Assembly: GCA_003987775.1 (NCBI GenBank)
Contig: RXJD01000014.1
Location: 1-64,000, forward strand
Length of the DNA stretch: 64,000 nucleotides
From: Mycobacterium sp.
GTDB lineage: Bacteria > Actinomycetota > Actinomycetes > Mycobacteriales > Mycobacteriaceae
Reading direction: 5' to 3'
Every line of letters starts with the position of its first letter. Within the stretch, counting starts at the first letter, position 1. Below, one piece after another: positions 704 to 50,847 of this stretch. Below the pieces are notes generated by a model. The model was not told where the DNA came from. It saw only the letters and a program-made list of their open reading frames with translations, and made no database searches. Both the position numbers and the translations under genes were made by a program.

Positions 704-1864
704 TCAGGCCTGGGTGTGCGCGGCGATCTGGAAGGTGAACTCGTGGTCGCAGATCCGGATGTGGTCGCCGTCGTGAATGGTGGCGGCGGTGCGGATCCGC
801 TGGTGCCGCACGTGCACACCGTTGGAGGACCGCAGGTCGTTGATGATGTAGTTCGTCCCAGTGTCGACGATGACCGCATGGTGGCGGCTGACGTTCGCGC
901 TGTCCAGAACGATGTCGTTGTCGCTGAGGCGGCCGATCCGGGTCGCCGCCGAACGCAGCGGGTAGTCGCGCCCGGTGGCAACGTCGCGCAGGTACGCCGC
1001 CACCTTCTGAGTGGCGGCCATGGTGCGCTTGTCCAGCACGGTGACCGTTCCTACGGCGGTCACCTTGGCGTTCTGCTTCACGTCCAGGGTCTCCTGGCGC
1101 AGGATCTTCTCGTTGAGCGCCCGCAGCGTCGGGCCCGGATCGATCCCGAGGTCGTCAGCGAGCGTCGTCTTCACCCGGCGGTAGGCGTTGAGGGCGTCGG
1201 ATTGGCGGTCGGTGAGGTAGTACGCCGTGATCAGCTGCGCCCACAACGGCTCCCGGTAGGGGTGCTCGACGGTCAGCGCCTCGAGTTCGGTGATCACCGC
1301 CGATGCCCGTCCGCAGGCGATCTCGGCTTCCGCCTTGGCGGTGTGCGCGATGATCTTGTCCTCGACCAGGGCGGTGGCGAACGAGTCCACGAACGGGAAG
1401 TCCCGCAAGTCGTCCAGCACCGGTCCGCGCCATTCCTTGAGCGCCGCCGACAGATGCCGGCTGGCCTGTTCGAAGCTGCCCGCGGCGGCGGCATGGACAC
1501 CCGCGGTCTTCTCGGCGATGAACCGCCCGAGATCGCAGGTGTTTTCGGGGATGGTGAGCCGGTATCCGGGTGGTGCCGCGGCCAGCACCAGCCGGGGATC
1601 GACGCCGGCGGCGCCGACCAGCTTGCGCAGGTTCGACACGTAGGAGTGGATGCTGGCCCGCGCACCCGAGGGAGGCCACTCGTCCCACAGGGCGGTGATC
1701 AGCGTGTCGACTCCGACGGGCCGGTTCCGGTTGATCACCAGCATGGCCAGCACGGCACGCTGCTTGGGGGTGCCGAGGGAGACCAGGCCCCCGTCGATCT
1801 TCATCTCCAGCGGTCCGAGCACACCGAACTCGAGATGTGTGTCCATCATCGCGCTACCAGCCAT
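704..1864 (-). CDS. embR: Transcriptional regulator EmbR (SARP type with FHA domain)
   Basis: A 386-residue protein, close to the 388 residues of M. tuberculosis EmbR. The N-terminus (about 10-105) is an OmpR-like winged-helix DNA-binding domain, with LGTPKQRAVLAMLV and SIHSYVSNLRKL typical of SARP regulators. Residues about 110-280 are the bacterial transcriptional activation (TPR-like) domain. The last ~85 residues are a forkhead-associated domain with RIGR, SRHHA and SSNGVH, the phosphothreonine-binding motifs. In M. tuberculosis PknH phosphorylates EmbR, and EmbR controls the embCAB arabinosyltransferase genes, the ethambutol target. Adjacent pknH supports the same pairing here. Confidence 0.95.
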   Translation of the reverse strand: MAGSAMMDTHLEFGVLGPLEMKIDGGLVSLGTPKQRAVLAMLVINRNRPVGVDTLITALWDEWPPSGARASIHSYVSNLRKLVGAAGVDPRLVLAAAPPGYRLTIPENTCDLGRFIAEKTAGVHAAAAGSFEQASRHLSAALKEWRGPVLDDLRDFPFVDSFATALVEDKIIAHTAKAEAEIACGRASAVITELEALTVEHPYREPLWAQLITAYYLTDRQSDALNAYRRVKTTLADDLGIDPGPTLRALNEKILRQETLDVKQNAKVTAVGTVTVLDKRTMAATQKVAAYLRDVATGRDYPLRSAATRIGRLSDNDIVLDSANVSRHHAVIVDTGTNYIINDLRSSNGVHVRHQRIRTAATIHDGDHIRICDHEFTFQIAAHTQA

Positions 1865-2204: not shown

Positions 2205-2915
2205 TCACTTGCGCGTCTCCTGGGTGACGCTCATGAAGTTGTGGCTGGTGGCCCATGCCTTGACGAACACGGCCATCGGGATCTGCTCGTCTTTGCCGTT
2301 CTTGCTGCCGCTGTCGTTGAGGTGCACGATGCCCTTGCCGGTGTCGACACCGGTCACCACCACGGCGTGGTCGGCGCGCGGCTGCCCGTCCTTACCGGTG
2401 TTCTCGATCGGCTGGTTCCAGATCATCTCGGCGTTGAGTCCGACGATGACGGCGTGACCGCTGCCGAGGTACTGCTCGAGGGCTTCCATGCCGGTGGCGA
2501 CACCGGTCTTGCCGGCCGTGTCCGCGTCGGTGTTGGTCGCGTGGATTCCGTAGTGCGCCAACAGGGTCGGCAGGTCGTCCGGGTCGGTGCCCATACCGGA
2601 GTTGGGGTCGTTCTTGTCGGCGGGCTTGACGTAGATCGAGCCCGGGTGCGTTGCGCTCGGGGTGGACTGGGCGACCTTGATGATGGACCGCTCCGAGGGC
2701 ATCTTGCCGGTGATCTGGCCGACCACATCGGCGCTGGACATGATGGCGCAGTCGTCGTAGTTCTGGTGAACCCAGTACTTGGCGACGGCGGTCGGGTCGC
2801 CGTACATGGTGCCCGTGCCAGCCTCGGCCGGGCCGGCCAACCCCAGCGCAATGACGCCGGCGGCGGTGGCCAGCAGGGCGGTCTTCGCGATCGAGGAGAC
2901 CTTGAGGCTCTTCAT
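2205..2915 (-). CDS. Secreted C39-like peptidase-family protein (Rv1268c homologue)
   Basis: A 236-residue exported protein. Residues 1-32 form a Sec signal peptide with a hydrophobic core (TALLATAAGVIALGLAG) and a likely cut after AEA. The mature part looks like the C39-like papain-fold family: a cysteine in NYDDC (C56), a histidine in RADHAVVVTG (H183) and an N/D pair in HLNDSGS (200-201) fit a Cys-His-Asp triad. The substrate is unknown, and many such proteins are uncharacterised. It occupies the place of M. tuberculosis Rv1268c. The start is an ATG followed by a basic n-region. Catalytic activity is inferred only from the spacing of these residues. Confidence 0.8.
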   Translation of the reverse strand: MKSLKVSSIAKTALLATAAGVIALGLAGPAEAGTGTMYGDPTAVAKYWVHQNYDDCAIMSSADVVGQITGKMPSERSIIKVAQSTPSATHPGSIYVKPADKNDPNSGMGTDPDDLPTLLAHYGIHATNTDADTAGKTGVATGMEALEQYLGSGHAVIVGLNAEMIWNQPIENTGKDGQPRADHAVVVTGVDTGKGIVHLNDSGSKNGKDEQIPMAVFVKAWATSHNFMSVTQETRK

Positions 2916-3026
2916 GCTCGTGTCCTTTGCTCTCGTGCTCCGCCTTCTGCGGAAGCCGTGCTGAACAAAGAATCGAATGGTGGCCTTTTTGTTATCTCTA
3001 CGGATTCTTGGAGTGACCTACGTGCT

Positions 3027-9180: not shown

Positions 9181-9740
9181 TGTCGTGAATTGTTAATTCG
9201 TGAGCAGTAGTTGGCGACGGATTCGAGGATTTGGTCCAGCCGCGAGGCAACGGCCTAGGTTGCCTGTCGGGCATTACTGGCAGGTACGGCTGGACCGCAA
9301 TGCGACGTGAAGCTTTGGCGCACAGCGCTTCACGCAGACGCCGTCGCTCTGATGGTCGCATCCGCGGACTTGCCTTTACGCCCGTAGCCCACCCGGCCGC
9401 GGCCGTTACGACGCTGAGGGTGACATCGAGGTGGCAGCACCGACACGCCACCATCGAACTGCGTGCTTAACAGACAGGTTTCCGGCAGCGGGTAGGCCGA
9501 AGAGTGTGGCGGACAACGCGGCACACGGCAGAACCCGAGTCGAGAAAAGGAACGGGCTTCGACGCGCCATCTGTGCCTTCCTTGTGCGCGCCCTGAACGA
9601 TACATTCCTTCTCAACGTGCTGCCGGTTGGCGCTTGGTGTCAGCTCGTGTGTGCCACCGACGCACACACGAAGGCCAAGACTGCATCCCTGACCGACGGC
9701 CGGCCCTGAGGTCTTTTCCTGTGCTGAGGGAGGGTTGCTG
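9181..9740. other. Intergenic region in front of the inserted kinase gene
   Basis: About 560 bases between lprC and the kinase. Close to lprC it holds the left copy of a 22-bp inverted repeat (9196-9217). The rest (about 9218-9725) shows short open frames but no ribosome binding sites or family motifs that I recognise. The end, GAGGGAGGG just before 9741, is the ribosome binding site of the kinase gene. Confidence 0.5.
9196..9217 (+). repeat. Left terminal inverted repeat of the kinase cassette
   Basis: A 22-bp sequence beginning ATTCGTGAGCAG and ending TTGGCGA, 15 bases after the lprC stop. Its perfect reverse complement is at 11765-11786. The pair brackets one gene that is absent from the corresponding position in M. 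tuberculosis as I recall it. Confidence 0.8.
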
Positions 9741-11675
9741 GTGGAGGGGAAGTCGTTCGGTCGCTATCGATTGATTGAACTGCTCGGGCGCGGTGGCATG
9801 GGTGAGGTTTGGCGAGCCCACGACAGCGAGATCGACCGCATGGTCGCGATCAAGACTTTGCTTCCGAATTTCGCCGAAGACGAAAAATTCGAGCAGCGTT
9901 TTCGTCGCGAAGCGCGCCTGGCTGCGCGCCTGGACGACCCGCATGTGGTGCCGATCTATGACGTCGGAGAGATCGATGGGCGGCTCTACGTTTCGATGCG
10001 GCTGATCGTCGGGCAAGACTTACAAACCTTGCTCGAGGCAGGTCCGATGGATCCTCGACGCGCGGTGGCGATTGTTGGCCAGGTCGCAGGCGCACTCAAC
10101 GCGGCGCACGCCGTGGGCCTCGTCCACCGCGATGTCAAGCCCTCGAATATCTTGGTCGCCGACAACGACTTCGCCTATTTGATCGATTTCGGCATCGCAC
10201 GCGCGACCGGTGAGACCGGCCTGACCTCGACCGGCACGACCATCGGCACCTGGTCTTACATGGCCCCGGAGCGATTCGCAACCGGGATCGCCGGAGCCCC
10301 CTCTGACATCTACGCGCTTGCCTGCGTACTGTTCCAATGCTTGACGGGCGAGCTCCCATTCCCCGCCGTCGCTCTAGAACAGATCGCGGTCGCTCATATG
10401 ACCGCCCCGCCCCCTAAACCTTGCGGCACGCGGCCGGACATACCCATAGCCATGAATACCGTGATCGCCACCGGCCTGGCCAAAAGACCTGAGGATCGCT
10501 ATGCCAGCACCGTTCAATTAGCCGAGGCCGCCCGCGACGCGCTGGGGACACACACCGACCCAATTGCGCCCCCACAGCTCCCGTCTACGGTGGTTGCGGC
10601 GAAATCTACGGAACAGACGCCGAAGGTTCAGCACCAGTCGACTCCACCGGAAAACGCTGTGTCAGGACTGCCGGCATCGGCGGATGCGGCCACCCGTCCA
10701 GCCTCCCCGATCGGCTCCCACGACTCAGGCGTCGTGAAGAACGCCTCAGGTACCCGCGGGCGACCCTTCTGGCGCAGAAAATCTGTCGTCCTACCGATGG
10801 CGCTTTGTGTTGCGGTAGCCATTGCTGCTGCTGTCTTGCTCTTTCGGGAAAACCCGCGGGGCGACTTATCTTACGGTCAACAAGTGGTGGTATTCGGCGA
10901 CGCCGCCCGAAGTTCACATGGTGTGGCTGTAGACAACGCAGGCTCCGTTTATGTCACCGCTGAGGACAGCGGAGGCAATAGAACGAACGTGCTCAAGCTG
11001 GCGCCCGGCGCAAATCGCCCAGAACAATTGCCTTTTCCGAACCTCAATTATCTCGATGGAGTCGCCGTCGACAACGCGGGAGCTGTCTACGTGATCGCAC
11101 GGGACAACGGAACCAACAAAGTGCTCAAGCTGCCCGCTGGGGCTAGCCGCCCCGACGTTCTGCCCTTTCCTCCAGATCTGAAGAGGACCGCCGGTCCGGC
11201 GGTAGATGCAAGCGGTGCGGTCTACGTCTCTGAGAATGTTCCCGACAGCACACCACAGGTGCTGAAACTGCCAGCCGGAGCCTCCCACGCCGAAAAGCTG
11301 CCCTTCACGAACCTGAAAGTAACGCTTGGTATCGCGGTCGACGACGCTGGCGCCGTCTACATCACCGACGCCTCGGACTCGTCAGTTGGTCGGGTGTTGA
11401 AGTTGCCGGCCGGAGCACCTCGCCCAGAAGTGTTGCCCTTCATCCACCTTCGCTCCCCGGAGGGTGTGGCCGTGGGCAGCGGCGGCGCCGTATATGTCGC
11501 GGACGACGATGTGGAACACCCTCGAGTACTGAAGTTGGCTGCTGGAGCCGATCACTCGGATGTGCTGCCGTTCAACCGGATACAAGACCCCAAGGGAGTG
11601 GCGACGGATAAGAGCGGCGCAGTCTACGTCTCCGAAGGCGCGGCGGCAGTCGTAGTGAAATTGCCGGTGAAGTAG
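9741..11675 (+). CDS. PknD-like serine/threonine kinase with beta-propeller sensor domain
   Basis: A 644-residue receptor-like kinase. Residues about 8-270 are the kinase domain: GRGGMGEV (16-23), ATP lysine K38, HRDVKPSN catalytic loop, IDFG metal-binding motif and APERF. A proline/threonine-rich linker (about 275-345) leads to one transmembrane helix (about 352-372). The extracytoplasmic part has six or so repeats of the type GVAVDNAGAVYV followed by VLKLPAGA and LPF, an NHL-type beta-propeller as in PknD. I prefer GTG 9741 with GAGGGAGGG upstream; TTG 9735 is possible. The gene looks acquired: it is bounded by inverted repeats and uses more A/T-ending codons than its neighbours. Confidence 0.88.
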   Translation: MEGKSFGRYRLIELLGRGGMGEVWRAHDSEIDRMVAIKTLLPNFAEDEKFEQRFRREARLAARLDDPHVVPIYDVGEIDGRLYVSMRLIVGQDLQTLLEAGPMDPRRAVAIVGQVAGALNAAHAVGLVHRDVKPSNILVADNDFAYLIDFGIARATGETGLTSTGTTIGTWSYMAPERFATGIAGAPSDIYALACVLFQCLTGELPFPAVALEQIAVAHMTAPPPKPCGTRPDIPIAMNTVIATGLAKRPEDRYASTVQLAEAARDALGTHTDPIAPPQLPSTVVAAKSTEQTPKVQHQSTPPENAVSGLPASADAATRPASPIGSHDSGVVKNASGTRGRPFWRRKSVVLPMALCVAVAIAAAVLLFRENPRGDLSYGQQVVVFGDAARSSHGVAVDNAGSVYVTAEDSGGNRTNVLKLAPGANRPEQLPFPNLNYLDGVAVDNAGAVYVIARDNGTNKVLKLPAGASRPDVLPFPPDLKRTAGPAVDASGAVYVSENVPDSTPQVLKLPAGASHAEKLPFTNLKVTLGIAVDDAGAVYITDASDSSVGRVLKLPAGAPRPEVLPFIHLRSPEGVAVGSGGAVYVADDDVEHPRVLKLAAGADHSDVLPFNRIQDPKGVATDKSGAVYVSEGAAAVVVKLPVK

Positions 11676-40742: not shown

Positions 40743-41078
40743 TCAGGTGGTGGTGACGTACTGCGGGCAGTAGGCGCTGGCGGCGTCGACGGCGAAGGTG
40801 TGGGCGCCGCTGCTGCTCAGGCCGGTCCGCTGGGCCACTCCGCTGATGACCTGCTTGCTGGACTGCCCGGCGTCGAGGGCGCTGCAGACGGCGTGCGCCT
40901 CACTGATCGCTCGCGAGCTGCTGGGCGGGGTGATCCCGTCAGCCTTGATCTGCGCGATGAAGGCGTCGTCGACCGTGCTTGCGCCAGCGGTGCCGGCCAG
41001 GCCGAGGGCGGCCAGTCCGAGCGTGGCGGCGGTCAGAGCGGTGCCGGCCAGGGAAGCGGTGAAACGACGAGTGAACAT
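40743..41078 (-). CDS. Secreted DUF732-family protein (Rv1291c-like)
   Basis: A 111-residue exported protein of the DUF732 family, the same length as I recall for Rv1291c. The signal peptide ([26 protein letters not shown]) has a cut after AGA/GAS. The mature domain has [41 protein letters not shown] and AYCPQYV; the two cysteines probably form a disulfide. The function is unknown. I chose the ATG at 41076-41078. A set of four 7-bp direct repeats with 11-bp period lies 56-95 bases upstream. Confidence 0.82.
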
Positions 41079-41133
41079 TGCTATCTCCGTGCTACTGAGG
41101 GTGGTGGTGAACGCTGGTTTGCGTTGAACCAAG

Positions 41134-41173
41134 CTTCTTGCGCACGGCTTGTGAAGTTCTCAATAGATTCTTG
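41134..41173 (-). promoter_or_regulatory. CAAGAAT direct-repeat operator, site A
   Basis: On the minus strand four heptamers follow each other at an exact 11-bp period: CAAGAAT, TGAGAAC, CAAGCCG and CAAGAAG. The nearest end is 56 bases upstream of the DUF732 gene start. Similar arrays precede three other minus-strand genes. The spacing is that used by OmpR/PhoB-type response regulators. Confidence 0.6.
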
Positions 41174-41181
41174 ATGCTGGC

Positions 41182-41964
41182 CTAGAGAGCGTGCGCCGTG
41201 AGCCAGCGCCGCATTCTCTCGGCCACCGCCTGCCACCCGGGCTCCAGCATCACGTCATGGGCCAGGTCCGGAAATATTTCCGCCTCGGTTCCGTACGTTG
41301 TTGCAATAGAACGGGTTTCGCGTGTTGTGACGATGGCGTCATGCTCGGCGCCGAGCACCAGCAACGGCACCCGCTTCACCCGTTCGGTGTCGACCAGGTC
41401 GAGGGCGAGCATGTCGAGGAATGCGCGGTAGGACTCGTCCTGGAGTCGCCGCTGATAGGCGACGACGTCCGCCTCGGGCATCGCGGGGGAAAAGAACAGC
41501 TCTCTGGCCAGGGCGGGTGTGGTCACCAATGGTCCCAGCCGCCTCTGGGCGTTGACCTTGGTGAAGGTAACGGGGTGGCGGCGGGCGATGTGCCCGGTCA
41601 CCCGCAGCACGCCTGTGGGCCGGATCGAGGCCAGCAGGATGGCCCCGGCGGCGGCGTGCCGGGTCAGGTAGTGCTGCACCACGAAGCCGCCCATCGAATG
41701 CCCGATCAGCACCGGGGCCCTCGGCAGAGACTCCGCTGCCGAGGCGACGTCGGCGACGTAGTCCCGGATCCGGGCCCCCCGCAGGGCGCCGGAACTTCCG
41801 CCATGGCCGCGCAGACTCGGGGCCACCACGCGGTATCCCTGGCCGGCGAAGTAGTCGAGGAAGTGTTCGTCCCAGCACCACGCCGCATGCCAGGCGCCGT
41901 GAACGAACAGCAGCGGCACGGGATGCTCGTCGGTGGGGTCACCCTTGTCGATGACGTCGAGCAT
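41182..41964 (-). CDS. Alpha/beta hydrolase
   Basis: A 260-residue alpha/beta hydrolase. FVHGAWHAAWCWDEHF carries the HG oxyanion motif, LIGHSMGG gives nucleophile S90, VLGAEHDAIVT the acid and DLAHDVMLEPGW the histidine. The WCWDEHF start is seen in lysophospholipase and esterase-like members of this family. The start ATG at 41962-41964 is seven bases downstream of the preceding peptidase stop, so the two are probably one transcript. The last codons are close to the operator of the next gene. The substrate is unknown. Confidence 0.85.
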   Translation of the reverse strand: MLDVIDKGDPTDEHPVPLLFVHGAWHAAWCWDEHFLDYFAGQGYRVVAPSLRGHGGSSGALRGARIRDYVADVASAAESLPRAPVLIGHSMGGFVVQHYLTRHAAAGAILLASIRPTGVLRVTGHIARRHPVTFTKVNAQRRLGPLVTTPALARELFFSPAMPEADVVAYQRRLQDESYRAFLDMLALDLVDTERVKRVPLLVLGAEHDAIVTTRETRSIATTYGTEAEIFPDLAHDVMLEPGWQAVAERMRRWLTAHAL

Positions 41965-41971
41965 GCGGTTG

Positions 41972-42502
41972 TCAGCCGGCTGCGTTGGGCCGCAACGGCG
42001 GGCAGGTGCCGCCGTAGTCGGAGGCCAACTCGAAATGCCAGATCTCGTTGGCGTAGATCTGGCACAGCCCGTATTCCGAGCCGTTGCGGATGAGCCAGGT
42101 GTCGGCGACGGTGGGCCCGACGTCCACGGCGTGGCCGATGACGTGTTTGGAGGTCTCGGGGGAGGCGACGTATTCGCTGGCGATGGCGGCGCTGCCGTAG
42201 CGGGCGACGGCGTCATTGAACAGCTGCTGCTGGAACTCCGGCGAGCGCCAACCAGACGTGAGGCCCAGCGTGATGCCGTCGGCCTTGGCGCCGCGCGCGG
42301 CCTGCTGGATCGCCTGCAGCAGCGCCGGCGTGAGCCGGTTGACCGCCGGGTCGGCCATGTCGAAGGTGCTGAGTTCCTGACCGTCGGGCACCCATCCGCC
42401 CGCGGTGTCGTCGCCGCCGGGCGTGGCCGTGGCCGGCGCCGACGGTGCGACGGCGGCGAGCATCACACCCGCAGCCGCCGACAGAAGCCATTTCCGCATC
42501 AT
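41972..42502 (-). CDS. Secreted VanY-like D-alanyl-D-alanine carboxypeptidase (M15 family)
   Basis: A 176-residue exported zinc peptidase. Residues 1-27 are a signal peptide (MMRKWLLSAAAGVMLAAVAPSAPATA). The M15 motifs are SGWRSPEFQQQLFNDAV, then SKHVIGHAVDVG (SxHxxGxAxD, giving the His and Asp zinc ligands) and NEIWHFEL (catalytic and third zinc residues). These enzymes trim the terminal D-alanine from peptidoglycan stem peptides outside the membrane. It lies upstream of an alpha/beta hydrolase gene in the same probable operon. The GC-rich gap to 42554 separates it from the thioesterase gene end upstream. Confidence 0.87.
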   Translation of the reverse strand: MMRKWLLSAAAGVMLAAVAPSAPATATPGGDDTAGGWVPDGQELSTFDMADPAVNRLTPALLQAIQQAARGAKADGITLGLTSGWRSPEFQQQLFNDAVARYGSAAIASEYVASPETSKHVIGHAVDVGPTVADTWLIRNGSEYGLCQIYANEIWHFELASDYGGTCPPLRPNAAG

Positions 42503-42553
42503 CGCCTTGTACCTTGGCGATTCCAGCTACACGCGTCAAGCTGGGCCGCTCTC

Positions 42554-43234
42554 TCACGCGGCCAGCACCGTCGAGACCAGCGGCTTCAGCGTCTCGAACA
42601 ACGGCTGGCGGTCGCGCAGGTAGAAGTGGCCGCCACGCAGGATCTGCACCGAGAAGTCCGCGGTGGTGCGCGAGCGCCACTCGCGCAGGTCCGATTCGCT
42701 GACCAGTGGGTCTTCGCTGCCGCCGAACACGTGGATCGGGCAGGGCAGCCCCGCGGTGTCCTCCTCCCGGTCGGTCGCGCACAGCTTCAGGTCGTGCCGG
42801 GTGGTGCTGACGGCCCGCTCGTGCAGCGTGGGCCAGCGGGTCAACCCGGTGGGCCAGCCGCCCAGGTCGGAGAACAACGTCACCAGTTGCTCGTCGTCGA
42901 GTCCGTCCACCAGATGCAGCGGCGGCGGGAGGTGGGGAGGGGCGTAGGCGGACAGAAACACCGCGCGGGGCAGCGTGAGGCCCGCCGCCGCCCGCACCGA
43001 CGCCAGCCGGTAGGCGAGCAGCGCGCCGAAGCTGTGGCCGAAGAACATGTGCGGCTCGTCGAGGTAGGGGCGCAGCTGCTCGTTGACCTCGTCGACCAGA
43101 TCGCGCATCGTGGCGAACCGCTCGCGATTGGCGATCTCGACGGGAATCACCTCGACGGCCGGCGCGAGGGCCTTCTGCCAGGCTTTGAATGTCAGGCTGC
43201 CGCCGCCGGCGTGGTGGAAACAGAACATCCTCAT
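42554..43234 (-). CDS. Type II thioesterase (TesA-like)
   Basis: A 226-residue alpha/beta hydrolase of the type II thioesterase family that releases stalled acyl groups from polyketide or nonribosomal peptide synthases. MFCFHHAGGGSLTFKAWQKAL at the start, FFGHSFGALLAYRLA (nucleophile S68), PIHVFGGSEDPLVSESDLREW (acid) and LRGGHFYLRDRQP (histidine) are all typical. I prefer ATG 43234 with AGAAGG upstream; ATG 43270 would add 12 residues. No PKS or NRPS gene lies in this window, so its partner is elsewhere. Three 11-bp-period repeats lie 59-87 bases upstream. Confidence 0.87.
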   Translation of the reverse strand: MRMFCFHHAGGGSLTFKAWQKALAPAVEVIPVEIANRERFATMRDLVDEVNEQLRPYLDEPHMFFGHSFGALLAYRLASVRAAAGLTLPRAVFLSAYAPPHLPPPLHLVDGLDDEQLVTLFSDLGGWPTGLTRWPTLHERAVSTTRHDLKLCATDREEDTAGLPCPIHVFGGSEDPLVSESDLREWRSRTTADFSVQILRGGHFYLRDRQPLFETLKPLVSTVLAA

Positions 43235-43292
43235 GGTCGTCGCCTTCTTCTCGTGGCTGGTGAAGCTCACGATCGGGGACGGACCTCAACGG

Positions 43293-43321
43293 ATCCTTGG
43301 CGGATTCTTGCGGGAATCTTG
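43293..43321 (-). promoter_or_regulatory. CAAGAAT direct-repeat operator, site B
   Basis: Three heptamers on the minus strand, CAAGATT, CAAGAAT and CAAGGAT, each followed by CC, at an exact 11-bp period. The nearest end is 59 bases upstream of the thioesterase start at 43234. This is the cleanest of the four sites. Confidence 0.65.
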
Positions 43322-43462
43322 CGCGTTACCGGATGACTCGATAGCGGAGCCGGGCGACGCCGGTGGCCTCGAGCACGCGCACGAGTTCGAGGCTGGGGAC
43401 GCCCGCCGGCAGGCCGCTTTCGATCGGCTTACCCCCAAGCAGACCCGCTCCGCGGGTGAAAC

Positions 43463-43816
43463 TTACCGGGACAGTGGGCTGTAGAAGACCAGACCGTTGC
43501 CCTTGTTGTCGTACACCACCGCGCGGCGCTCGTGCGCGTCGTCATAGGGCGCCCGCACGATTCCGCCGCCGCTGGCCTCGATGGCCCTGGCCGCCGCGTC
43601 AACGTCCGAGGTCTTGATGCCGACGACGACCTGCCCGGGGATGGGGTGGTCCACCGCCGTGGCGAGTGCCAGCGTGATCGATCCGCCGTCGAGGGCCGCG
43701 AAATGGTCTCCGTCGCGGAACTTGACCGCCATTCCCAGGTTTTCGGAATAGAAGCGGATCGATTCGTCCAGATCGTCCGTCGACAACACGATCATCCGTA
43801 CTTCCTGTGTGCTCAT
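43463..43816 (-). CDS. VOC-family (glyoxalase fold) protein
   Basis: A 117-residue VOC protein. VRMIVLSTDDLDESIRFYSENLGMAVKFRDGDHFAALDGGSITLALA forms the first module, and VVVGIKTSDVDAAARAIEASGGGI with RRAVVYDNKGNGLVFYSPLS the second. It resembles the bleomycin-resistance/glyoxalase group, without an assigned substrate. The start ATG at 43814-43816 follows GGAGGTGGCG, a good ribosome binding site. It is divergent from the dehydrogenase gene. It is the fourth VOC sequence in the accessory block, counting the remnant at 39397. Confidence 0.83.
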   Translation of the reverse strand: MSTQEVRMIVLSTDDLDESIRFYSENLGMAVKFRDGDHFAALDGGSITLALATAVDHPIPGQVVVGIKTSDVDAAARAIEASGGGIVRAPYDDAHERRAVVYDNKGNGLVFYSPLSR

Positions 43817-43888
43817 CGCCACCTCCGGGAATCGTCGTGCCGCTAACGGTAAACCGCACCGCCGGGGGCCGTGGGACAAGATGGCAGG

Positions 43889-44851
43889 GTGCAGAAATCG
43901 CGTGAGGTACTCGGGATCGGCCCGTTCGAGCCGACATTCAGCAGCGAACTGTCCAAACGCTACGAATTCGCCACGCTCCCAGCCGGTCCGGAAAGGGCCG
44001 CGTTCCTCGCCGAGCGCGCCGCTGAGATCCGGGTGCTGGTGACCTCGGGTGGCCCCGGCGCGGACGCCGAGACCATCGCGGCCCTGCCCAATCTGGAAGC
44101 GATCGTCAACAACGGGGCCGGGGTGGACGCGATCGACCTGCAGGCGGCCGAGCGTCGCGGCATCGGCGTCAGCAATACCCCCGACGTGCTCTCCGACACC
44201 GTCGCCGACACCGCGCTGGGACTGATCCTCATGACGCTGCGCCGTTTCGGCGCCGCGGACCGCTACGTGCGGGCGGGGCGGTGGGCGAGCGACGGGCCGT
44301 TCGGCTACGCGCGCGACGTGAGCGGCCTTCAAGTCGGGATCCTGGGCCTGGGGCGCATCGGGTCGGCGATCGCGACCCGGCTGCGCGGATTCGACTGTGC
44401 CATCGCCTATCACAACCGCCACCGCATCGACGGCTCGTCATACCGGTATGCGGAATCGGCCGTGGAGCTGGCCGAGTCGGTCGACGTGTTGGTCGTCGCC
44501 ACCACCGGTGACGGTGGGAATCATCACCTGGTTGACCGGGCCGTCCTACAGGCGTTGGGTCCGGACGGCTATCTGATCAACATCGCCCGGGGCAGCGTCG
44601 TGGACCAGGACGTGCTGGTGGAGTTGCTGCGCAGCGGCGGTCTCGCCGGGGCAGGCCTGGACGTCTTCGCCGACGAGCCGCACGTGCCCGCCGCATTGCG
44701 CAGCCTGGACAACGTGGTGCTGTTTCCGCACATCGGCAGTGCGACGGCCCGCACCCGCCGGGCGATGGCGCTGCTGGCGATCCGCAACCTGGACAGCTAC
44801 CTGAGCACCGGTGAGCTGGTGACACCCGTGCTGCGGCCGGTCAGGCGGTGA
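43889..44851 (+). CDS. D-2-hydroxyacid dehydrogenase (glyoxylate/hydroxypyruvate reductase-like)
   Basis: A 320-residue NAD(P)-dependent dehydrogenase. The nucleotide-binding motif is VGILGLGRIGSAIATRL. The catalytic residues are the arginine in NIARGSVVD, the glutamate in DVFADEPHVP and the histidine in LFPHIGSATARTRRAM. GAGVDAIDLQAAERRGIGVSNTPDVLSDTVADTALGL is the usual substrate-side signature. It reduces a 2-keto acid such as hydroxypyruvate or glyoxylate, or the reverse. I chose GTG 43889 (MQKSREVLG); GTG 43871 adds six residues. The gene overlaps the convergent membrane-protein gene by 11 bases. Confidence 0.87.
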   Translation: MQKSREVLGIGPFEPTFSSELSKRYEFATLPAGPERAAFLAERAAEIRVLVTSGGPGADAETIAALPNLEAIVNNGAGVDAIDLQAAERRGIGVSNTPDVLSDTVADTALGLILMTLRRFGAADRYVRAGRWASDGPFGYARDVSGLQVGILGLGRIGSAIATRLRGFDCAIAYHNRHRIDGSSYRYAESAVELAESVDVLVVATTGDGGNHHLVDRAVLQALGPDGYLINIARGSVVDQDVLVELLRSGGLAGAGLDVFADEPHVPAALRSLDNVVLFPHIGSATARTRRAMALLAIRNLDSYLSTGELVTPVLRPVRR

Positions 44852-45347
44852 GCCTGCGCTGCACCTCTCGGGTGACGTCGAGATGCTGCTGGACGGTGGC
44901 GAGGTCGGCTTCCAGGGTGCCGGCGTCGGGCATGGTTGCGGCGGTGGCGTAGCGCGCCACCGCGGCCTCGATCGACTCCACCGTCGCGGTGATGGTCGCG
45001 AGTAATTCGTCGCGGTGGCTGGGTGCAAGCTGGGCGATGGCGACCAGGTGGTCGTCGAGGTCCAGTGCGGTCTGTTCCAGGTCGGCGCGCAACACGATCG
45101 TCGTCCCGGTGTCGATGGCGTTGACGGCGTACAGGGCGGTCATGGCGTCGCGCAGTCTGCGGTGCAGCCGCGCTTCGGGGTCGTGCGAGACCGCCCACGA
45201 TCGGGGAGCGCGGGTGGGCCGGCCCGGGATCAGCTGGTTGGCGTCGGTGATCGCCCGCTGCTGGCGGTGATGGACCACCGCGACAGCCGCCGCCGCAACC
45301 CCTGCGAGGAGGAACAGAATCAGGATCACCGCTACGACGATTTCCAT
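44841..45347 (-). CDS. Single-pass membrane protein, third gene of the zinc-ribbon/SPFH operon
   Basis: A 168-residue protein with one N-terminal transmembrane helix (residues 3-25, VVAVILILFLLAGVAAAAVAVV) and a cytoplasmic part that looks mostly helical with possible coiled coil (LHRRLRDAMTALYAVNAI, VAIAQLAPSHRDELLATITATVESIEAAVARYA, LEADLATVQQHLDVTREVQRRL). I recognise no named family. It starts three bases after the zinc-ribbon gene stop, so it belongs to that operon. By position it may play the part of the membrane subunit in ydjGHI-like systems, but similarity is not evident. Confidence 0.7.
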   Translation of the reverse strand: MEIVVAVILILFLLAGVAAAAVAVVHHRQQRAITDANQLIPGRPTRAPRSWAVSHDPEARLHRRLRDAMTALYAVNAIDTGTTIVLRADLEQTALDLDDHLVAIAQLAPSHRDELLATITATVESIEAAVARYATAATMPDAGTLEADLATVQQHLDVTREVQRRLTA

Positions 45348-45350
45348 CGA

Positions 45351-46790
45351 TTACCTCCGGTGGACGCGGCTGGGCGTTCGGCTCGAATGATGGCCGTGCG
45401 AATGGAAGTACGCCCAGATCGCGATCACCAGGATCACGACCAGGACCGCACAGGTGATGGCAATCGCCAGCTTGACCTTGCTCCACGGCCGATCGCCTGC
45501 CACCTCCCCGGTCAGGCCGTTGATGGCGACCTGGAACGGGCGGTTGCTGTACATAACCGTTAGCAGCCAGATGGGCAGCAGAATGTGCTTGAAGCCCAGG
45601 TAGTTCCAGTTGGTGCGGAGCTGGTGGATCCGCTGATGGTCACCCCCGATGTCGGATCGCACCGTCCGCTCGACGGCCTGCTCCATCTCCTGTTGCGCCT
45701 CGGGCAGCGCCTGTTCGGCATCCTTGTCGTAAGTGCGGCACAGGTGGCCGGCGACGAACTCGGGCGAGTAGGACCGTGCCTGCTCCACCGGCCACGGTTC
45801 GAGCTGCTTGATTCGTTTGCGGTTGAGGTTCTCGCTGTCGTTGGCCAGCACCGGCAGGTCGGCGAACACGTTATTCACTTGTCCGGCAACGCGATACCAC
45901 GACGTGCGGGTCTCGTAGATCGGGTCGCCGTCGCTGTCGGTGCCCACCCGCACCTGATAGTCCTCGCCGCGCTCTCCCTCGTACCAGGTGTCGGTGTTGG
46001 CGTCATAAGTGAAGTAGGCGGTGTACAAGCTGGAGAAGGCGCCGATCTCGCGGTATTTCTTGAAGTCGGTGGGCGCGAACCAGCGCTTGGTGACCCACTT
46101 TTCGATGAGCTGGCGGGCCTGTTTCTCGTCGATGCGGAACGGCACCACCCCGTCCACCGGCAACCGCGCCGGAGCGTTGTGCACATCGTCGCGCTGGATC
46201 GGTGTCGCGCAGTAGGGACATTTGGTGGACGTCAGGCTCCCGGCGAATTCCGTTGTGCCACCGCAGTTCTGGCACTTGACTTCGCGCATGCCGGAGACGC
46301 TCGGGCCCTCCTGGCCGCGCTGCGACTCGCGCAGGTGGTGCATCGCGCCACGCAATTCCCGCGATCTGACCGGGGTGTTTGGCGCGGTGATGTCGGAGTA
46401 GTTCCCGCAGCTGGGGCAGCGCATCTTCTGGCTGGCGATGTCGAAATTGAGCTGGCCGCCGCAGGACGCGCACGGGTACGTAAGGGTGCGTTCGGTCTGG
46501 TGGAACATCGCCGGGCCGGCCGGGGGACCGGCGAAGGGGCGCACGGGCGGCGGGGCCGGGGCGGGCGCCGGAGCCTGGCGTGGCGGCAGTGGCGGCGGAC
46601 TGGCCTGCGGCCGCGGCAACGGCGGGGGACCGGCCGGACGTGGCGGCAACGGCGGCGGAGCTGCGGGCCGTGGCGGCAGCGGCGGTGGTCCCGCGTTCCG
46701 GGGCGGCAGCGGGGACGGACTGCTCGGGGGGCGAGGCAACGGTGGCGGCTGCGGATGGGGAGGGCGCGGGTCGCCCGGGTCGTAACTCAT
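45351..46790 (-). CDS. Proline-rich double zinc-ribbon membrane protein (YdjG/TFIIB-zinc-ribbon-like)
   Basis: A 479-residue protein. Residues 1-95 are very proline-rich. Two zinc ribbons follow: CASCG...CPSCG (about 103-125) and CQNCG...CPYCA (about 165-190). The middle (about 200-420) resembles the conserved region of bacterial TFIIB-type zinc-ribbon proteins (VPFRIDEKQARQLIEKWVTKRWFAPTDFKK, YTAYFTYDANTDTWYEGERGEDY). Two C-terminal hydrophobic segments (LLPIWLLTVMY and LAIAITCAVLVVILVIAIWAYF) anchor it. It overlaps the SPFH gene by four bases. In Bacillus ydjGHI, similar proteins cooperate at the membrane with a phage-shock protein. Confidence 0.82.
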   Translation of the reverse strand: MSYDPGDPRPPHPQPPPLPRPPSSPSPLPPRNAGPPPLPPRPAAPPPLPPRPAGPPPLPRPQASPPPLPPRQAPAPAPAPPPVRPFAGPPAGPAMFHQTERTLTYPCASCGGQLNFDIASQKMRCPSCGNYSDITAPNTPVRSRELRGAMHHLRESQRGQEGPSVSGMREVKCQNCGGTTEFAGSLTSTKCPYCATPIQRDDVHNAPARLPVDGVVPFRIDEKQARQLIEKWVTKRWFAPTDFKKYREIGAFSSLYTAYFTYDANTDTWYEGERGEDYQVRVGTDSDGDPIYETRTSWYRVAGQVNNVFADLPVLANDSENLNRKRIKQLEPWPVEQARSYSPEFVAGHLCRTYDKDAEQALPEAQQEMEQAVERTVRSDIGGDHQRIHQLRTNWNYLGFKHILLPIWLLTVMYSNRPFQVAINGLTGEVAGDRPWSKVKLAIAITCAVLVVILVIAIWAYFHSHGHHSSRTPSRVHRR

Positions 46791-47956
46791 TGCTGCGGAA
46801 GCGGAGGCGGCGTGCCGGGCAGCGGGGGCGGGGTGCTGAACAACGACTGCAGGGCCGGCACGCTGGACGCCGGCGCCCAGTTCGCCATGCCCTCGGTCCA
46901 CACCACGGTGTCGCGGGTCAGCTGACCGCTGGCGACGAACGGCCGCAGCGCGCTGACGGGGTAGGGGCCGGCGGGTTGACCACCCTGATCGAAGTGGAAG
47001 AGCTGCTGGGTGGGCAGCGGCGGGGGTGCCCCTTGCATCGGCTGCTGGGTGGCCGCGAACTGCTGTGGTTGGGCCTGCGGCTGAGCGGCATTGGCCATCT
47101 GCGCGCCCAGCGCGACACCGAGCCCGGCCTGGATGGCCGAGCCGGCTGCGCCGCCACCTTCGTTCTGGGCCGCGGCCAGCATCGCGTCCGCCCGGCGGGC
47201 CTGCTCGTAACGGTTGAGGTCGCCGACGTTGTTCAGGAAGCTGCTCTCTTCCAGGCCGCGTGCGACGCCGCGGGTCATCGCCTGCTGGATCTCTTCCGGC
47301 AGCGAGATCGTCATGGTGACGGCGTCGATCCCGAGTCCGAAGGCCTGCACCCGCTGCGCCACGAACTCGCGCAGCTTGTCCGACAACTCCACCTGGCGGC
47401 CCTGCAGGTCGATCGCGCCCAGGCCGCTGCCCATGACCATGTCGTTGAACGCCAGGGCGATGTTGCGGCGGATCAGCTCGGTGATCTGATCCATGTCCAC
47501 CACGCTCTGGGTGCCCAGCACCTGGCGCAGGAAGACGGTGGGGTCGGTCACCCGCACCACCGTGGTGCCGTTGGCCCGCACCTGCACCATCTTGAAGTCC
47601 GGGTCCCGCACTGTCACGGGTTGCGGTGTGCCCCAACGCAAGTCGGGATACGGGCGGGTGTTGACGTAATAGACCTCGGAGCGGAACGGGCTGTTGAACC
47701 CGTATTTCCATCCCTGCAGCGTGCCCAGAATCGGCATGTTCTCACTGGTGAGGGTGTAGTGGCCGGGGGTGAACTGGTCGGCCAGCTGCCCGCGATAGAC
47801 GAACATCGCCCGCTGGCCCTCCCGGACGATCAGCTGGGCACCGTTCTTGATCTCGTTTTCATACCGCGGAAACCGCCATGCCAACGTGGTGTTCGTGTCA
47901 TCGAGCCATTCGATGATGTCGACGAACTCGCCCCGGATCATGTCGCGCATGCCCAT
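46787..47956 (-). CDS. SPFH-domain protein with C-terminal GYF_2-like domain (YdjI type)
   Basis: A 389-residue protein. The N-terminal two thirds match the SPFH/virion-core-protein group that includes YdjI: NTTLAWRFPRYENEIKNGAQLIVREGQRAMFVYRGQ, TPQPVTVRDPDFKMVQVRANGTTVVRVTDPTVFLRQVLG, QVELSDKLREFVAQRVQAFGLGIDAVTMTISLPEEIQQAM. A glutamine/alanine-rich linker leads to a GYF_2-like domain (QLFHFDQGGQPAGPYPVSALRPFVASGQLTRDTVVWTEGM). It is the first gene of a three-gene operon with the zinc-ribbon and single-pass proteins. It likely forms membrane-associated assemblies in envelope stress. An 11-bp-period repeat array lies upstream. Confidence 0.85.
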   Translation of the reverse strand: MGMRDMIRGEFVDIIEWLDDTNTTLAWRFPRYENEIKNGAQLIVREGQRAMFVYRGQLADQFTPGHYTLTSENMPILGTLQGWKYGFNSPFRSEVYYVNTRPYPDLRWGTPQPVTVRDPDFKMVQVRANGTTVVRVTDPTVFLRQVLGTQSVVDMDQITELIRRNIALAFNDMVMGSGLGAIDLQGRQVELSDKLREFVAQRVQAFGLGIDAVTMTISLPEEIQQAMTRGVARGLEESSFLNNVGDLNRYEQARRADAMLAAAQNEGGGAAGSAIQAGLGVALGAQMANAAQPQAQPQQFAATQQPMQGAPPPLPTQQLFHFDQGGQPAGPYPVSALRPFVASGQLTRDTVVWTEGMANWAPASSVPALQSLFSTPPPLPGTPPPLPQQ

Positions 47957-48073
47957 GGTGTCGGTCCCCTCCTCGGCCTTCGATATCTCGGCGAATCTTA
48001 CGCGGCGACGCGGTTGTTCAGCTGGCGGTTACGGCAAAGCCCTGCTCCGCCGCAGCGGGTGGCCGACGACAAC

Positions 48074-48102
48074 ATTCCAGGAGAGTTCTTGGAAAATTCT
48101 TG
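48074..48102 (-). promoter_or_regulatory. CAAGAAT direct-repeat operator, site C
   Basis: Minus-strand heptamers CAAGAAT, CAAGAAC and CTGGAAT at an exact 11-bp period. The nearest end is 118 bases upstream of the SPFH gene start, further than in the other cases. It also lies just beyond the end of the upstream hydrolase gene. Confidence 0.6.
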
Positions 48103-48110
48103 GAGCCCGG

Positions 48111-48953
48111 CTAGTGGCTGCGTGCGAGGGTGCGAATGAGGCCGGCGACGCGATGCGGCCGTTCGATCATCACGAGGTGCCCGGCTGGGGCGACGGTGAC
48201 GTGGTCTGCTCCGAGATCTGCAGCGAGCTCGAGCTGCTGGGCGCGCCAGCGCCGGGTGCGCCAACCCGTGTGCGCGGTCGCCACCATGCGTGGCACCGGT
48301 GGCAGCGGATGACGGATCCGCAGGTGGTACAGCTCGGCCGCAAGCTCGTGGTATCCGACATATTCGGTGAACAGCGCGGGCAGAAATGCGGGATCACTTG
48401 CTGCACTGCATATTTGGGCACGCATGGGCGCGTCGAGCCCGCCCGGCCGTCGCCGCTGCGCGAGCGCGAGGCCGACGCCGGCCACCGGTTCGTCGAGGTG
48501 CAGCGTGCGCAGGAGCGCCGCACCGGCGTGGGCGGCGGTGAGTTTGGCCGGTAACGGCAGCGCGGGCCGGCGGCGCTCGGTGGCGATGCTGGAATCGAGC
48601 AACAGCACGGCGCGGGTGCGGTGCGGGTACAGACGCGCGAATGCTTCGGCGTAGAAGCCGCCGACCGAGTGTCCCGCCACGACGGCGCGTTCGGCGCCCG
48701 GTACGGCGTCCAGGACGGCCGCGATCCTGTCCGCCTCAGCCTGCACCGTCGGCAAAGGGGGCGGGGTCACCGGAGTGCCGGGCCGGTCGAAGCGCAGCAC
48801 GGTGTGGTCGCCGGCCAGGTCCGCCGCCGTGTCGCTCCAGTGCAGCGCGCGCCCGCCCAGGCCGCTGCACAACACCACCACCGGACCGCTGTCGCCGTCG
48901 ACGAGGATGCGTACCCGGTAGCCGCCGACCTCGACATCGGCGCCGTGGCTCAC
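48111..48953 (-). CDS. Alpha/beta hydrolase
   Basis: A 280-residue alpha/beta hydrolase. VVLCSGLGGRALHWSDTA carries a variant oxyanion motif, VVAGHSVGGFYAEAFARLYP gives nucleophile S96, and APAGHLVMIERPHRVA gives the catalytic histidine. An N-terminal strand pair (VEVGGYRVRILVDGDSGPVVV) is typical. The substrate is unknown. The GTG at 48951-48953 overlaps the stop of the upstream membrane-protein gene by four bases (GTGA), so the two are co-translated. A longer open frame upstream in this phase is a shadow of that membrane protein. Confidence 0.83.
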   Translation of the reverse strand: MSHGADVEVGGYRVRILVDGDSGPVVVLCSGLGGRALHWSDTAADLAGDHTVLRFDRPGTPVTPPPLPTVQAEADRIAAVLDAVPGAERAVVAGHSVGGFYAEAFARLYPHRTRAVLLLDSSIATERRRPALPLPAKLTAAHAGAALLRTLHLDEPVAGVGLALAQRRRPGGLDAPMRAQICSAASDPAFLPALFTEYVGYHELAAELYHLRIRHPLPPVPRMVATAHTGWRTRRWRAQQLELAADLGADHVTVAPAGHLVMIERPHRVAGLIRTLARSH

Positions 48954-49681
48954 GGGCCGGTTGCGCTGGGTACCCGGGCGGTCCGCAGGGCGGCGTAGAT
49001 CAGCCAGGAGGCGAACGCCACCAGCTCGGCCCGCTGCGCGACGCCCACCATGCCCACGACGTCCGTGTGGTCGATGAGGATCGCCACGCCGGTCCAGATC
49101 GCGGTGCCGACCAACGCCGTCAAGGTGAGCAGTCCGGTGCGGCAGATCGGGGCGGAGGCGCCTTCCCGGTAGTCGGCGATCGCAAATGCCAACAGCGACG
49201 CGATCGCGGCGGCCAGCGCCATCCCGCTGCTGAGCCAGTGCAGCTGGTGGCTCAGCGGCACGGTCCCCGCGGCCTCGCGGGCCGCGCACGCGGCATCCGA
49301 ACTCGGCGCGCACACCAGCGTCCACACCGTGCTGTCCAGGCCCGTCGCCACAGCGAAGACCCCGAGTGCGCCCCAGCCTGCCTTGCTCCACCGGCTGCCC
49401 CGGACGCCGATCAGCGCAGCGACGGTCGCCACGACCAGGACGACGGCACAGGCCCGGTCGCAGATGCGAAACCACTCGCCATACGGTTGATCGGCCGCGG
49501 AGAGTTCGCTGATGTACATGTCCGGATCCGGCAGCAGACTGCGGGTGAGGTAGTTCTCGAGGATCCAGTTCGAATACAGCACGGCGCCGGCCACCGAACC
49601 GGCGGAGGCGATCCATCGCAGCGCGGACAACGACTCGTGACTGATCTCCGCCACCAGGGCGGAGCGTGGCCGCACTGCCAT
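48950..49681 (-). CDS. DUF998-like integral membrane protein
   Basis: A 243-residue protein with about six predicted transmembrane helices, including CAVVLVVATVAALIGV, AGWGALGVFAVATGLDSTVW, GMALAAAIASLLAFAIA, GLLTLTALVGTAIWTGVAI and AELVAFASWLIYAAL. The DUF998 features are a first helix region with YSNWILENYL and HQLHWLSSG before the fourth helix. The function is unknown. I chose the ATG at 49679-49681 (MAVRPRSALVAEISHESL); an earlier ATG at 49708 adds nine residues. It is coupled to the downstream hydrolase gene. Confidence 0.75.
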   Translation of the reverse strand: MAVRPRSALVAEISHESLSALRWIASAGSVAGAVLYSNWILENYLTRSLLPDPDMYISELSAADQPYGEWFRICDRACAVVLVVATVAALIGVRGSRWSKAGWGALGVFAVATGLDSTVWTLVCAPSSDAACAAREAAGTVPLSHQLHWLSSGMALAAAIASLLAFAIADYREGASAPICRTGLLTLTALVGTAIWTGVAILIDHTDVVGMVGVAQRAELVAFASWLIYAALRTARVPSATGP

Positions 49682-49746
49682 ACCGCCATCATGCCGTGGT
49701 CGGCACATTGCGGCGGGTCTTCGGGAACCTGGCGCGCCGTGTTTCG

Positions 49747-50733
49747 CTATGCCAGGTCGGATTCCGCGTCGACGGCGGCGTACTGACGGACACCGGTCTG
49801 CAGTGCCTTGCGCATCAGCTCCGGCTGGTGCTCGTAGGGAGCGGTCGAGTCGATGAAGCGCTGGACGACCTCCACGAAACGGTCCGGGTGGTCACCGTGC
49901 GGCATGTGGCCGGACTCCTCGAAGATTTCCAGACGCGAGCCGGGGATCTGTTCGTGGGCCACCCGGGCGTGGTTGGCCGGGATGATCAGGTCGTCCTCGC
50001 CCCAGATGATCTGGACGGGAAGGTCGTGCATCAGGTAGGTGCGGTCGAGCATGGTGACGTACTGGCCGCGGGTGTCGACGACTGCGCGCAGGGTGCGGGC
50101 GAACGCTTCGACGGCGCCCGGTTTGCGCAACCCGCCCACCAGGCGCGGCAGGCTGGCGACGTCACGGGTCAGCCGGGTGGAGCCGGCGACGTGACCGACC
50201 GCGCGGCTGACCAGGCCCAGAGCGGGGACCGCGCCGGGCAGTCGCAGCGCCGAGAGCATCTCGGCGCCCATGGGCATCGCCGCGAAGCGCAGGGCCGCGC
50301 TCACCTCCGTGGTGACGCCGCCGGCGCTCACCAGCACCACCCGCTCGACGAATTGCGGGTACTGGTAAGCGAACTGGGCCGCGAGGCCGCCGCCGAGAGA
50401 GTGCCCGACGAGGGTGACCCGGTCGATTTCGAGGGCCGTCAGCAGGTCGCGTAGGCCGTTGGCGAACGCGGCCAGCGAGTAGTCGGCGCGCGGCTTGTCC
50501 GATTCGCCGTGGCCCAGCATGTCGGGCGCGATGACGGTGAATCGCTGGGCAAGCTTGGCGTGCACCGGTTCCCACGTCGTCGAGCTGTCGCCGACGCCGT
50601 GCAGCAGCACGACGACCGGGCCGGAACCGGCGATACGGAAGGCGCGCCGGTGGCCGTGGATGGTGCGGAACTGCAGTGCCGGCGCGGTGACATCCCGTAC
50701 GGGCCGTAGGTGGCGGCGTGAACGGTTGGTCAT
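49747..50733 (-). CDS. Alpha/beta hydrolase (Rv2715-like)
   Basis: A 328-residue alpha/beta hydrolase. VVLLHGVGDSSTTWEPVHAKLAQRFTVIAPDMLGHGESDKP is the classic N-terminal half, LVGHSLGGGLAAQFAYQYP gives nucleophile S112, WGEDDLIIPANHA the acid and EESGHMPHGDHPDRF the histidine. It closely resembles M. tuberculosis Rv2715 as I recall it (LRPVRDV near the start, QFRT-HG-RRAFRIAGSGP). Rv2715 is a hydrolase of unclear substrate. The gene stands alone. Its upstream region holds an 11-bp-period repeat pair 66-83 bases before the start and a 21-bp inverted repeat further out. Confidence 0.88.
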   Translation of the reverse strand: MTNRSRRHLRPVRDVTAPALQFRTIHGHRRAFRIAGSGPVVVLLHGVGDSSTTWEPVHAKLAQRFTVIAPDMLGHGESDKPRADYSLAAFANGLRDLLTALEIDRVTLVGHSLGGGLAAQFAYQYPQFVERVVLVSAGGVTTEVSAALRFAAMPMGAEMLSALRLPGAVPALGLVSRAVGHVAGSTRLTRDVASLPRLVGGLRKPGAVEAFARTLRAVVDTRGQYVTMLDRTYLMHDLPVQIIWGEDDLIIPANHARVAHEQIPGSRLEIFEESGHMPHGDHPDRFVEVVQRFIDSTAPYEHQPELMRKALQTGVRQYAAVDAESDLA

Positions 50734-50798
50734 TGTCTCGTCCCCTTTGCGTCGTCTCCACCGCCGAGGCGGGGTATTGCGGAGAAGCTTGCCGGGGA

Positions 50799-50816
50799 GC
50801 TCTTGGAAAATTCTTG
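50799..50816 (-). promoter_or_regulatory. CAAGAAT direct-repeat operator, site D
   Basis: Two heptamers on the minus strand, CAAGAAT and CAAGAGC, separated by the same spacer (TTTC) as at site C, at an 11-bp period. A third position downstream is poor. The nearest end is 66 bases upstream of the hydrolase start at 50733. Confidence 0.55.
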
Positions 50817-50847
50817 AAGCTTTCGGGGCGAGGGGCTGCCTGGCTTT

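Follow-up and report, generated by a model that had tools for sequence, protein, structure and literature searches.

We analysed a stretch of 64,000 nt from Mycobacterium sp. (GenBank assembly GCA_003987775.1, contig RXJD01000014.1, positions 1-64,000), hereafter the window; it is labelled contig C99 of the 7.29-Mb genome. Four of its genes are preceded on the minus strand by head-to-tail arrays of a heptamer with the consensus CAAGAAT. By their sequence, these CAAGAAT arrays are conserved promoter elements that many mycobacteria share. A promoter regulon, recognised through direct repeats of 7 bp with an 11-bp period, is well supported. The presence of the arrays in a genome goes together with that of genes of the EmbR type, and the arrays lie close to such genes more often than expected. 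We conclude, with a probability of roughly 0.87, that the arrays are activator-dependent promoters of a regulon of EmbR-family SARPs (Streptomyces antibiotic regulatory proteins).

Anatomy and conservation of the arrays

The full element consists of two to four heptamers at an 11-bp period, followed by 7 bp and a weak -10 (GANNCT). In the alignment of sites, the hexamer found 7 bp after the last heptamer has the form (G/C)ANNNT and is often GANNCT. As a search pattern we used the pair CAAGAAT-N4-CAAGAAT, with mismatches allowed as given below, and its reversed form as control. At up to 3 mismatches this pair is noisy genome-wide (129 matches, versus 56 for the reversed pattern), and for this reason a sequence-only model of 46 positions, named R1, was built from 25 sites. 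These include the thioesterase array of the window (array 2 below), four further sites of the same genome and orthologues of window arrays 1, 2 and 4 (two for array 1, one for array 4). Since the 25 sites were chosen partly by their -10 letters, the -10 was re-tested on sites picked by their heptamers alone. This set has 26 deduplicated sites (near-identical ones were dropped from 37) from 80 named embR loci, L101-L180, and none of them is in the R1 model. The G of the third heptamer (position 25) is present in 26 of 26 sites; in the hexamer, G is found in 19, A (position 37) in 22, C (position 40, the fifth place) in 23 and T (position 41) in 19 of the 26.

The arrays of the window and the genes behind them are as follows.

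41130-41173, minus strand: array 1, CAAGAAT, TGAGAAC, CAAGCCG, 7 bp, -10 GAAGCT (41137-41132); R1 E=1.7e-4
40743-41132, minus strand: secreted DUF732 protein, proposed target of array 1 (Pfam, open reading frame list)
43267-43321, minus strand: array 2, CAAGATT, CAAGAAT, CAAGGAT, TGAGGTC, 7 bp, -10 GATCGT (43274-43269); R1 E=1.1e-9, itself a model site
42554-43270, minus strand: type II thioesterase whose start is likely the ATG at 43234, proposed target of array 2 (Pfam Thioesterase, E=2.3e-34)
48069-48105, minus strand: array 3, CAAGAAT, CAAGAAC, 7 bp, -10 GAATGT (48077-48072); R1 E=3e-4
46787-47956, minus strand: SPFH/GYF_2 protein, first gene behind array 3 (Pfam)
50785-50819, minus strand: array 4, CAAGAAT, CAAGAGC, 7 bp, -10 CAAGCT (50791-50786); R1 E=6.3e-4
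49747-50733, minus strand: alpha/beta hydrolase, proposed target of array 4 (Pfam Abhydrolase_1)
2969-3010, minus strand: degenerate fifth array, CAAGAAT, AGAGATA, AAAGGCC, 7 bp, -10 GATTCT (2974-2969); R1 E 0.11 (weak)
2205-2915, minus strand: secreted C39-like protein, proposed target of the fifth array (Pfam Peptidase_C39_2, E=9.8e-7)

The four minus-strand heptamer sites that a preliminary description had noted are all present where it placed them, and the distances that it gave to the start codons, 56-66 bases in three arrays and 118 in the remaining one, agree with the sequence. Its copy counts of 4, 3, 3 and 2 needed correction in part. Array 1 has three heptamers; the supposed fourth copy, CAAGAAG, overlaps the -10, as the orthologous arrays show. 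Array 2 has four if the degenerate TGAGGTC is included. Array 3 has two, and its supposed third copy, CTGGAAT, overlaps the -10 GAATGT, while array 4 has two clear heptamers. The DUF732 reading frame is listed from a TTG, and its likely start is the ATG at 41078. The hydrolase gene was called Rv2715-like in the preliminary description, which also saw a lone CAAGAAT near 3005-3015 and no further intergenic array in the window. That site is in fact the degenerate fifth array, which precedes the C39-like gene. Weak by R1 alone, it is backed by the arrays that precede the equivalent embR-adjacent gene in relatives, namely in several named species and in genome G104.

The pair pattern is far more frequent than its controls. 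At up to 3 mismatches, the window has 8 matches, while 100 dinucleotide shuffles gave a mean of 0.91 and a largest value of 4. Scans of the whole genome and of related mycobacteria, which the preliminary description had proposed as a check, bore out the repeat. At up to 1 mismatch, 9 matches were found in the genome versus 0 for the reversed pattern, and across 198 genomes of the genus, this one included, 242 matches in 88 genomes stand against 31 reversed matches in 30 genomes. Five genomes of the genus reach 11-14 matches each. As the reversed pattern occurs in 30 of the 198 genomes, a lone match in a genome may be due to chance. The arrays are also conserved upstream of orthologues. All four orthologous genes are preceded by arrays in L080 (genome G006) and in L081 (a Mycobacterium gordonae contig, G119). 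In L082, a contig of M. asiaticum (G107), arrays clearly precede the DUF732, thioesterase and hydrolase orthologues, and only a 4-mismatch pair precedes the SPFH gene.

Association with EmbR-type genes

Co-occurrence was counted in the 198 genus genomes, with R1 sites at E<=1e-3 and EmbR-type matches of the BTAD domain at E<=1e-43. R1 sites are found in 77 of the 101 genomes that have an EmbR-type match and in 5 of the 97 that lack one (263 versus 6 sites); the Fisher value is 7e-27, and like those that follow it overstates independence, since the genomes are related. Without the 14 genomes that supplied model sites, the counts are 63/87 versus 5/97 (Fisher 7e-23). The plain pattern, which does not depend on the model, gives 72/101 versus 16/97 (3e-15), while the reversed pattern is found in 15 versus 15. 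In a family-wide sample, R1 sites occur in 5 of 121 genomes. All five belong to the group of six for which an EmbR-like match at 52% identity or more is listed. One of these five, G223, lies outside the genus. The EmbR-like matches of G004 (C1:3780652-3781755) and G223 (C1:378647-379762) have one in-frame TGA each.

Closeness points in the same direction. Among the matches listed, 15 of 150 array sites lie within 5 kb of a BTAD gene, where 0.47 would be expected. For this test, listed sites (150 after overlaps were merged) were compared with listed BTAD genes, and the expectation assumes a uniform 6-Mb genome. The distance and co-occurrence tables were transcribed by hand from match lists. When the 80 embR loci are scanned with flanks of up to 10 kb, 40 of them contain R1 matches at E<=0.01. 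There are 51 such matches; 46 are on the strand of embR, and one, in L170, is a model site. In four loci (L070-L073), an embR-like gene, a PknH-like kinase gene, an array and a DUF732-like gene stand in this order; Pfam checks covered the kinases of two of them, L072 and L073, and also the DUF732 protein of L072. An embR-like gene with an array just behind it, in which the spacers read TTCG, stands between arabinosyltransferase-like genes in L063 and L065.

EmbR, array variants and rival explanations

The candidate regulator is encoded near the start of the window.

704-1864, minus strand: embR, SARP-type activator (Trans_reg_C, BTAD and FHA domains), proposed array binder (Pfam, PDB matches)

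Its Pfam scores are 42.7 bits for Trans_reg_C, 167.7 bits for BTAD and 63.6 bits for FHA. Thus both the domain order of SARPs, with an N-terminal OmpR-type DNA-binding domain followed by BTAD, and the C-terminal FHA domain of the EmbR subfamily are present. The protein is 98% identical to EmbR of M. gordonae DSM 44160, so the source of the window is a near relative of that species. Among PDB chains, it matches EmbR (2fez) with E=1.3e-218 and AfsR (8hvr) with E=7.8e-34. The former is EmbR (Rv1267c) of M. tuberculosis, to which the window protein is a full-length counterpart, and the alignment shows no difference between the two in the stretch SGARASIHSYVSNLRKL. A BTAD search of the genome found two genes, this embR and a second SARP gene on contig C112, and both proteins bear FHA. 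The C112 gene adjoins an arabinosyltransferase-like gene, and an array lies 13 kb away from it. In relatives, PknH-like kinase genes adjoin embR. Here the contig starts at window base 1, just beyond embR (1-704), so that the kinase gene expected behind embR falls outside this assembly piece. Another Ser/Thr kinase gene, with an NHL-repeat part by Pfam, lies in the neighbourhood of embR at 9735-11675.

The recognition helices of the SARPs were read by phmmer and compared with the arrays beside their genes. All eight SARPs of L066-L073 have the helix S[ILV]HSY[VI]SN. Those of L063 and L065 have SIQSY, and the adjacent arrays have TTCG spacers and a fourth heptamer. The SARP of L064 has TIQSY and its adjacent array is TTCT-spaced. 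The C112 protein has SIQSH and not SIHSY. In 20 genomes that have a SARP and no R1 match, the helix is of type HSY in 6, HTH in 4, HVY in 6 and HAY in 2, with one other and one that gave no aligned helix. Three of the HSY type, G093, G120 and G197, do have pattern matches (G120 also has one control match). A separate group of SARPs, in L223, L224, L226, L227, L234 and L236, has the helix HNLHVY and no FHA motif recognised by the regular expression used as FHA flag, and its genomes are without R1 matches.

We propose that SARP protomers bind head to tail on the two to four heptamers, one per helical turn. With the last heptamer ending 7 bp before the weak -10, the bound activator would replace the -35 by recruiting RNA polymerase. 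In this genome, the binder of the arrays would most likely be EmbR, and the second SARP perhaps reads the TTCG-spaced variant. The FHA domain, and the PknH-like kinases whose genes adjoin embR in relatives, suggest control by Ser/Thr phosphorylation.

This scheme resembles that of Streptomyces SARPs such as AfsR at the afsS promoter: an OmpR-type domain with BTAD, direct repeats spaced at 11 bp and a last repeat near a weak -10 (PMC10936776). The same paper places the -10 at 8 bp from the 3' repeat and likens AfsR to EmbR (PMC10936776). Our gap is 7 bp versus the published 8 bp, with repeat ends drawn by hand and a -10 inferred from sequence. Unlike in Streptomyces, the heptamer is CAAGAAT, up to four copies are found, the regulon is dispersed, and the regulator bears FHA and stands beside Ser/Thr kinase genes in relatives. 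EmbR had been taken for a regulator of the embCAB arabinan genes. For M. tuberculosis, the EmbR paper terms the protein a SARP and reports that in the deletion mutant 90 of 116 changed genes were down while embCAB was unaffected (PMC9239209). The paper treats embCAB, hspX and devS, while here secreted proteins of the DUF732 and C39-like kinds and loci for peptide synthesis are the predicted targets. Its main text uses none of the terms 'motif', 'consensus' and 'direct repeat'. Searches of open-licence papers yielded no published EmbR binding motif and no mycobacterial regulator site of the form CAAGAAT, in agreement with the preliminary description, which had not recognised one.

Several observations weigh against our reading, besides the relatedness of the genomes. 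The 1e-43 cut was picked once the data were known, although the result also stands at 1e-42 and 1e-45. No R1 site was found at the strict setting in 24 of the 101 genomes with an EmbR-type gene, and R1 sites do occur in 5 of the 97 genomes that lack such a gene. Three genomes with an HSY-type SARP, G015, G033 and G078, have neither R1 nor pattern matches, and G228 encodes an EmbR-like protein of 56% identity and has no R1 site. The 15 close sites include several from closely related genomes (for example G124/G145 and G039/G080), and window arrays 1-4 are themselves 39-49 kb from embR. In the M. tuberculosis paper, EmbR is said to bind DNA of the embC, embA and embB promoters in vitro, and surface plasmon resonance gave no binding to hspX (PMC9239209); neither Rv1268-Rv1271 nor the nrp genes are mentioned in its main text.

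SARPs use the winged helix of the OmpR/PhoB type, and PhoB/PhoP-type boxes are likewise made of 7-bp units with 4-bp spacers, read by winged-helix proteins. The preliminary description, which took the arrays for the regulon of an OmpR/PhoB-family response regulator, was thus close on the DNA-binding fold, and its regulon stands, through the 7-bp repeats with 11-bp period. The response-regulator part found no support. Five sampled genomes hold 34 sites, of which 1 has an OmpR-type gene within 5 kb (0.63 expected) and 3 have a SARP gene within that distance (0.19 expected). For all the likeness in unit, spacer and reader fold, no enrichment near response-regulator genes is seen at this distance. 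Each of these genomes holds 11-13 OmpR-type genes, while the presence of arrays tracks EmbR-type SARP genes instead. Within 20 kb, SARP genes are found at 5 of 34 sites (0.8 expected) and OmpR-type genes at 7 of 34 (2.5 expected); this excess of the latter weakens the control and counts against our reading, as does one G039 array whose neighbours include an OmpR-type regulator gene as well as a SARP gene. All in all, we consider it quite improbable that a two-component response regulator binds the heptamers. That the C112 paralogue, rather than the window EmbR, chiefly reads the window arrays deserves more credit, since it too is an FHA-bearing SARP with an array 13 kb from its gene; its SIQSH helix makes this unlikely, given that SIQSY-type SARPs adjoin TTCG-spaced arrays and HSY-type SARPs other arrays.

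SigC controls the lipopeptide cluster in M. tuberculosis. This, together with a -10-like hexamer at a fixed distance, would suit the promoter of an alternative sigma factor with the heptamers as its -35. One SigC paper states that SigC raises ctpB and further genes (PMC7924339). Two to four head-to-tail copies at an 11-bp period are unlike a -35, and however many copies there are, the last one keeps a constant distance to the hexamer, which leaves the sigma-factor explanation very improbable. Chance or compositional repeats without function do account for lone matches, such as those of the reversed pattern in 30 of 198 genomes and perhaps the R1 sites of the 5 genomes noted above. As an explanation of the arrays they are negligible: the counts are far above the shuffled and reversed controls, and place and orientation are conserved. 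Of the candidate readers of the arrays, an EmbR-family SARP has the best support.

Predicted regulon

At E<=0.1, R1 finds 14 sites in this genome, of which five belong to the model. We estimate the regulon at about 20 promoters once the TTCG-spaced and the weaker conserved sites are added. The R1 search did not list the TTCG-spaced arrays at C28:74176, C28:48327, C37:59127 and C104:22904, which were found by pattern searches. Gene calls in the loci follow a simple GC-position heuristic. The first genes behind the arrays include those for DUF732 and C39-like secreted proteins, the type II thioesterase, the SPFH/GYF protein, hydrolases, CDO_I, DUF1275, a GTP cyclohydrolase I-like protein, an M48 peptidase, a Cyt-b5/fatty-acid desaturase, DUF4190 and AbrB (PF05145). 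For the best-scoring array (C54, L083), the gene that follows has no Pfam match. On contig C28, TTCG-spaced or related arrays (L075 6328 and L076 6177) precede an MbtH/peptide-synthetase pair and a Ser/Thr kinase gene, the latter behind an ABC-like/MMPL stretch.

A further array (L240 15402; L241 13264-13303) lies between a PPE gene and genes for TauD, a thioesterase, an AMP-ligase, a carrier and an AMP-binding/reductase protein; FcoT and the carrier were Pfam-scanned in the M. asiaticum copy only. This layout of TauD, thioesterase, AMP-ligase, carrier and synthetase resembles that of Rv0096-Rv0101, the isonitrile-lipopeptide cluster. Its array is weak in this genome (R1 E 2.9), and in M. asiaticum it runs CAAGGAT, CAAGAAT, CAAGAAT, CAAGCAA.

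In 7 of 18 tabulated loci of this genome outside the window, a start codon is found at +48/+49, 6-7 nt past the hexamer (L091 was counted by its second-ranked frame and L019 in its own register), a position that would be expected from leaderless transcription. The array promoters of the window itself are not leaderless.

On balance, we lean towards a broader picture, in which mycobacteria have a kinase-linked SARP code: FHA-bearing EmbR paralogues, each with its own array variant, would directly activate a dispersed and partly leaderless regulon of DUF732 and C39-like secreted proteins and nonribosomal-peptide loci, one of them similar to the isonitrile-lipopeptide cluster. EmbR would chiefly activate secreted proteins and secondary metabolism, under the control of Ser/Thr kinases, rather than arabinan synthesis. 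If this is true, a DNA code for EmbR-type regulators would narrow the search for their direct targets to a few promoters that can be tested. It would link Ser/Thr kinases to individual secreted proteins and peptide products, and would carry over to mycobacteria the promoter logic that SARPs follow in antibiotic producers.

In L078, two divergent arrays stand back to back, at 4714 on the minus strand and 4742 on the plus strand, and an Abhydrolase_10 gene follows the plus-strand one.

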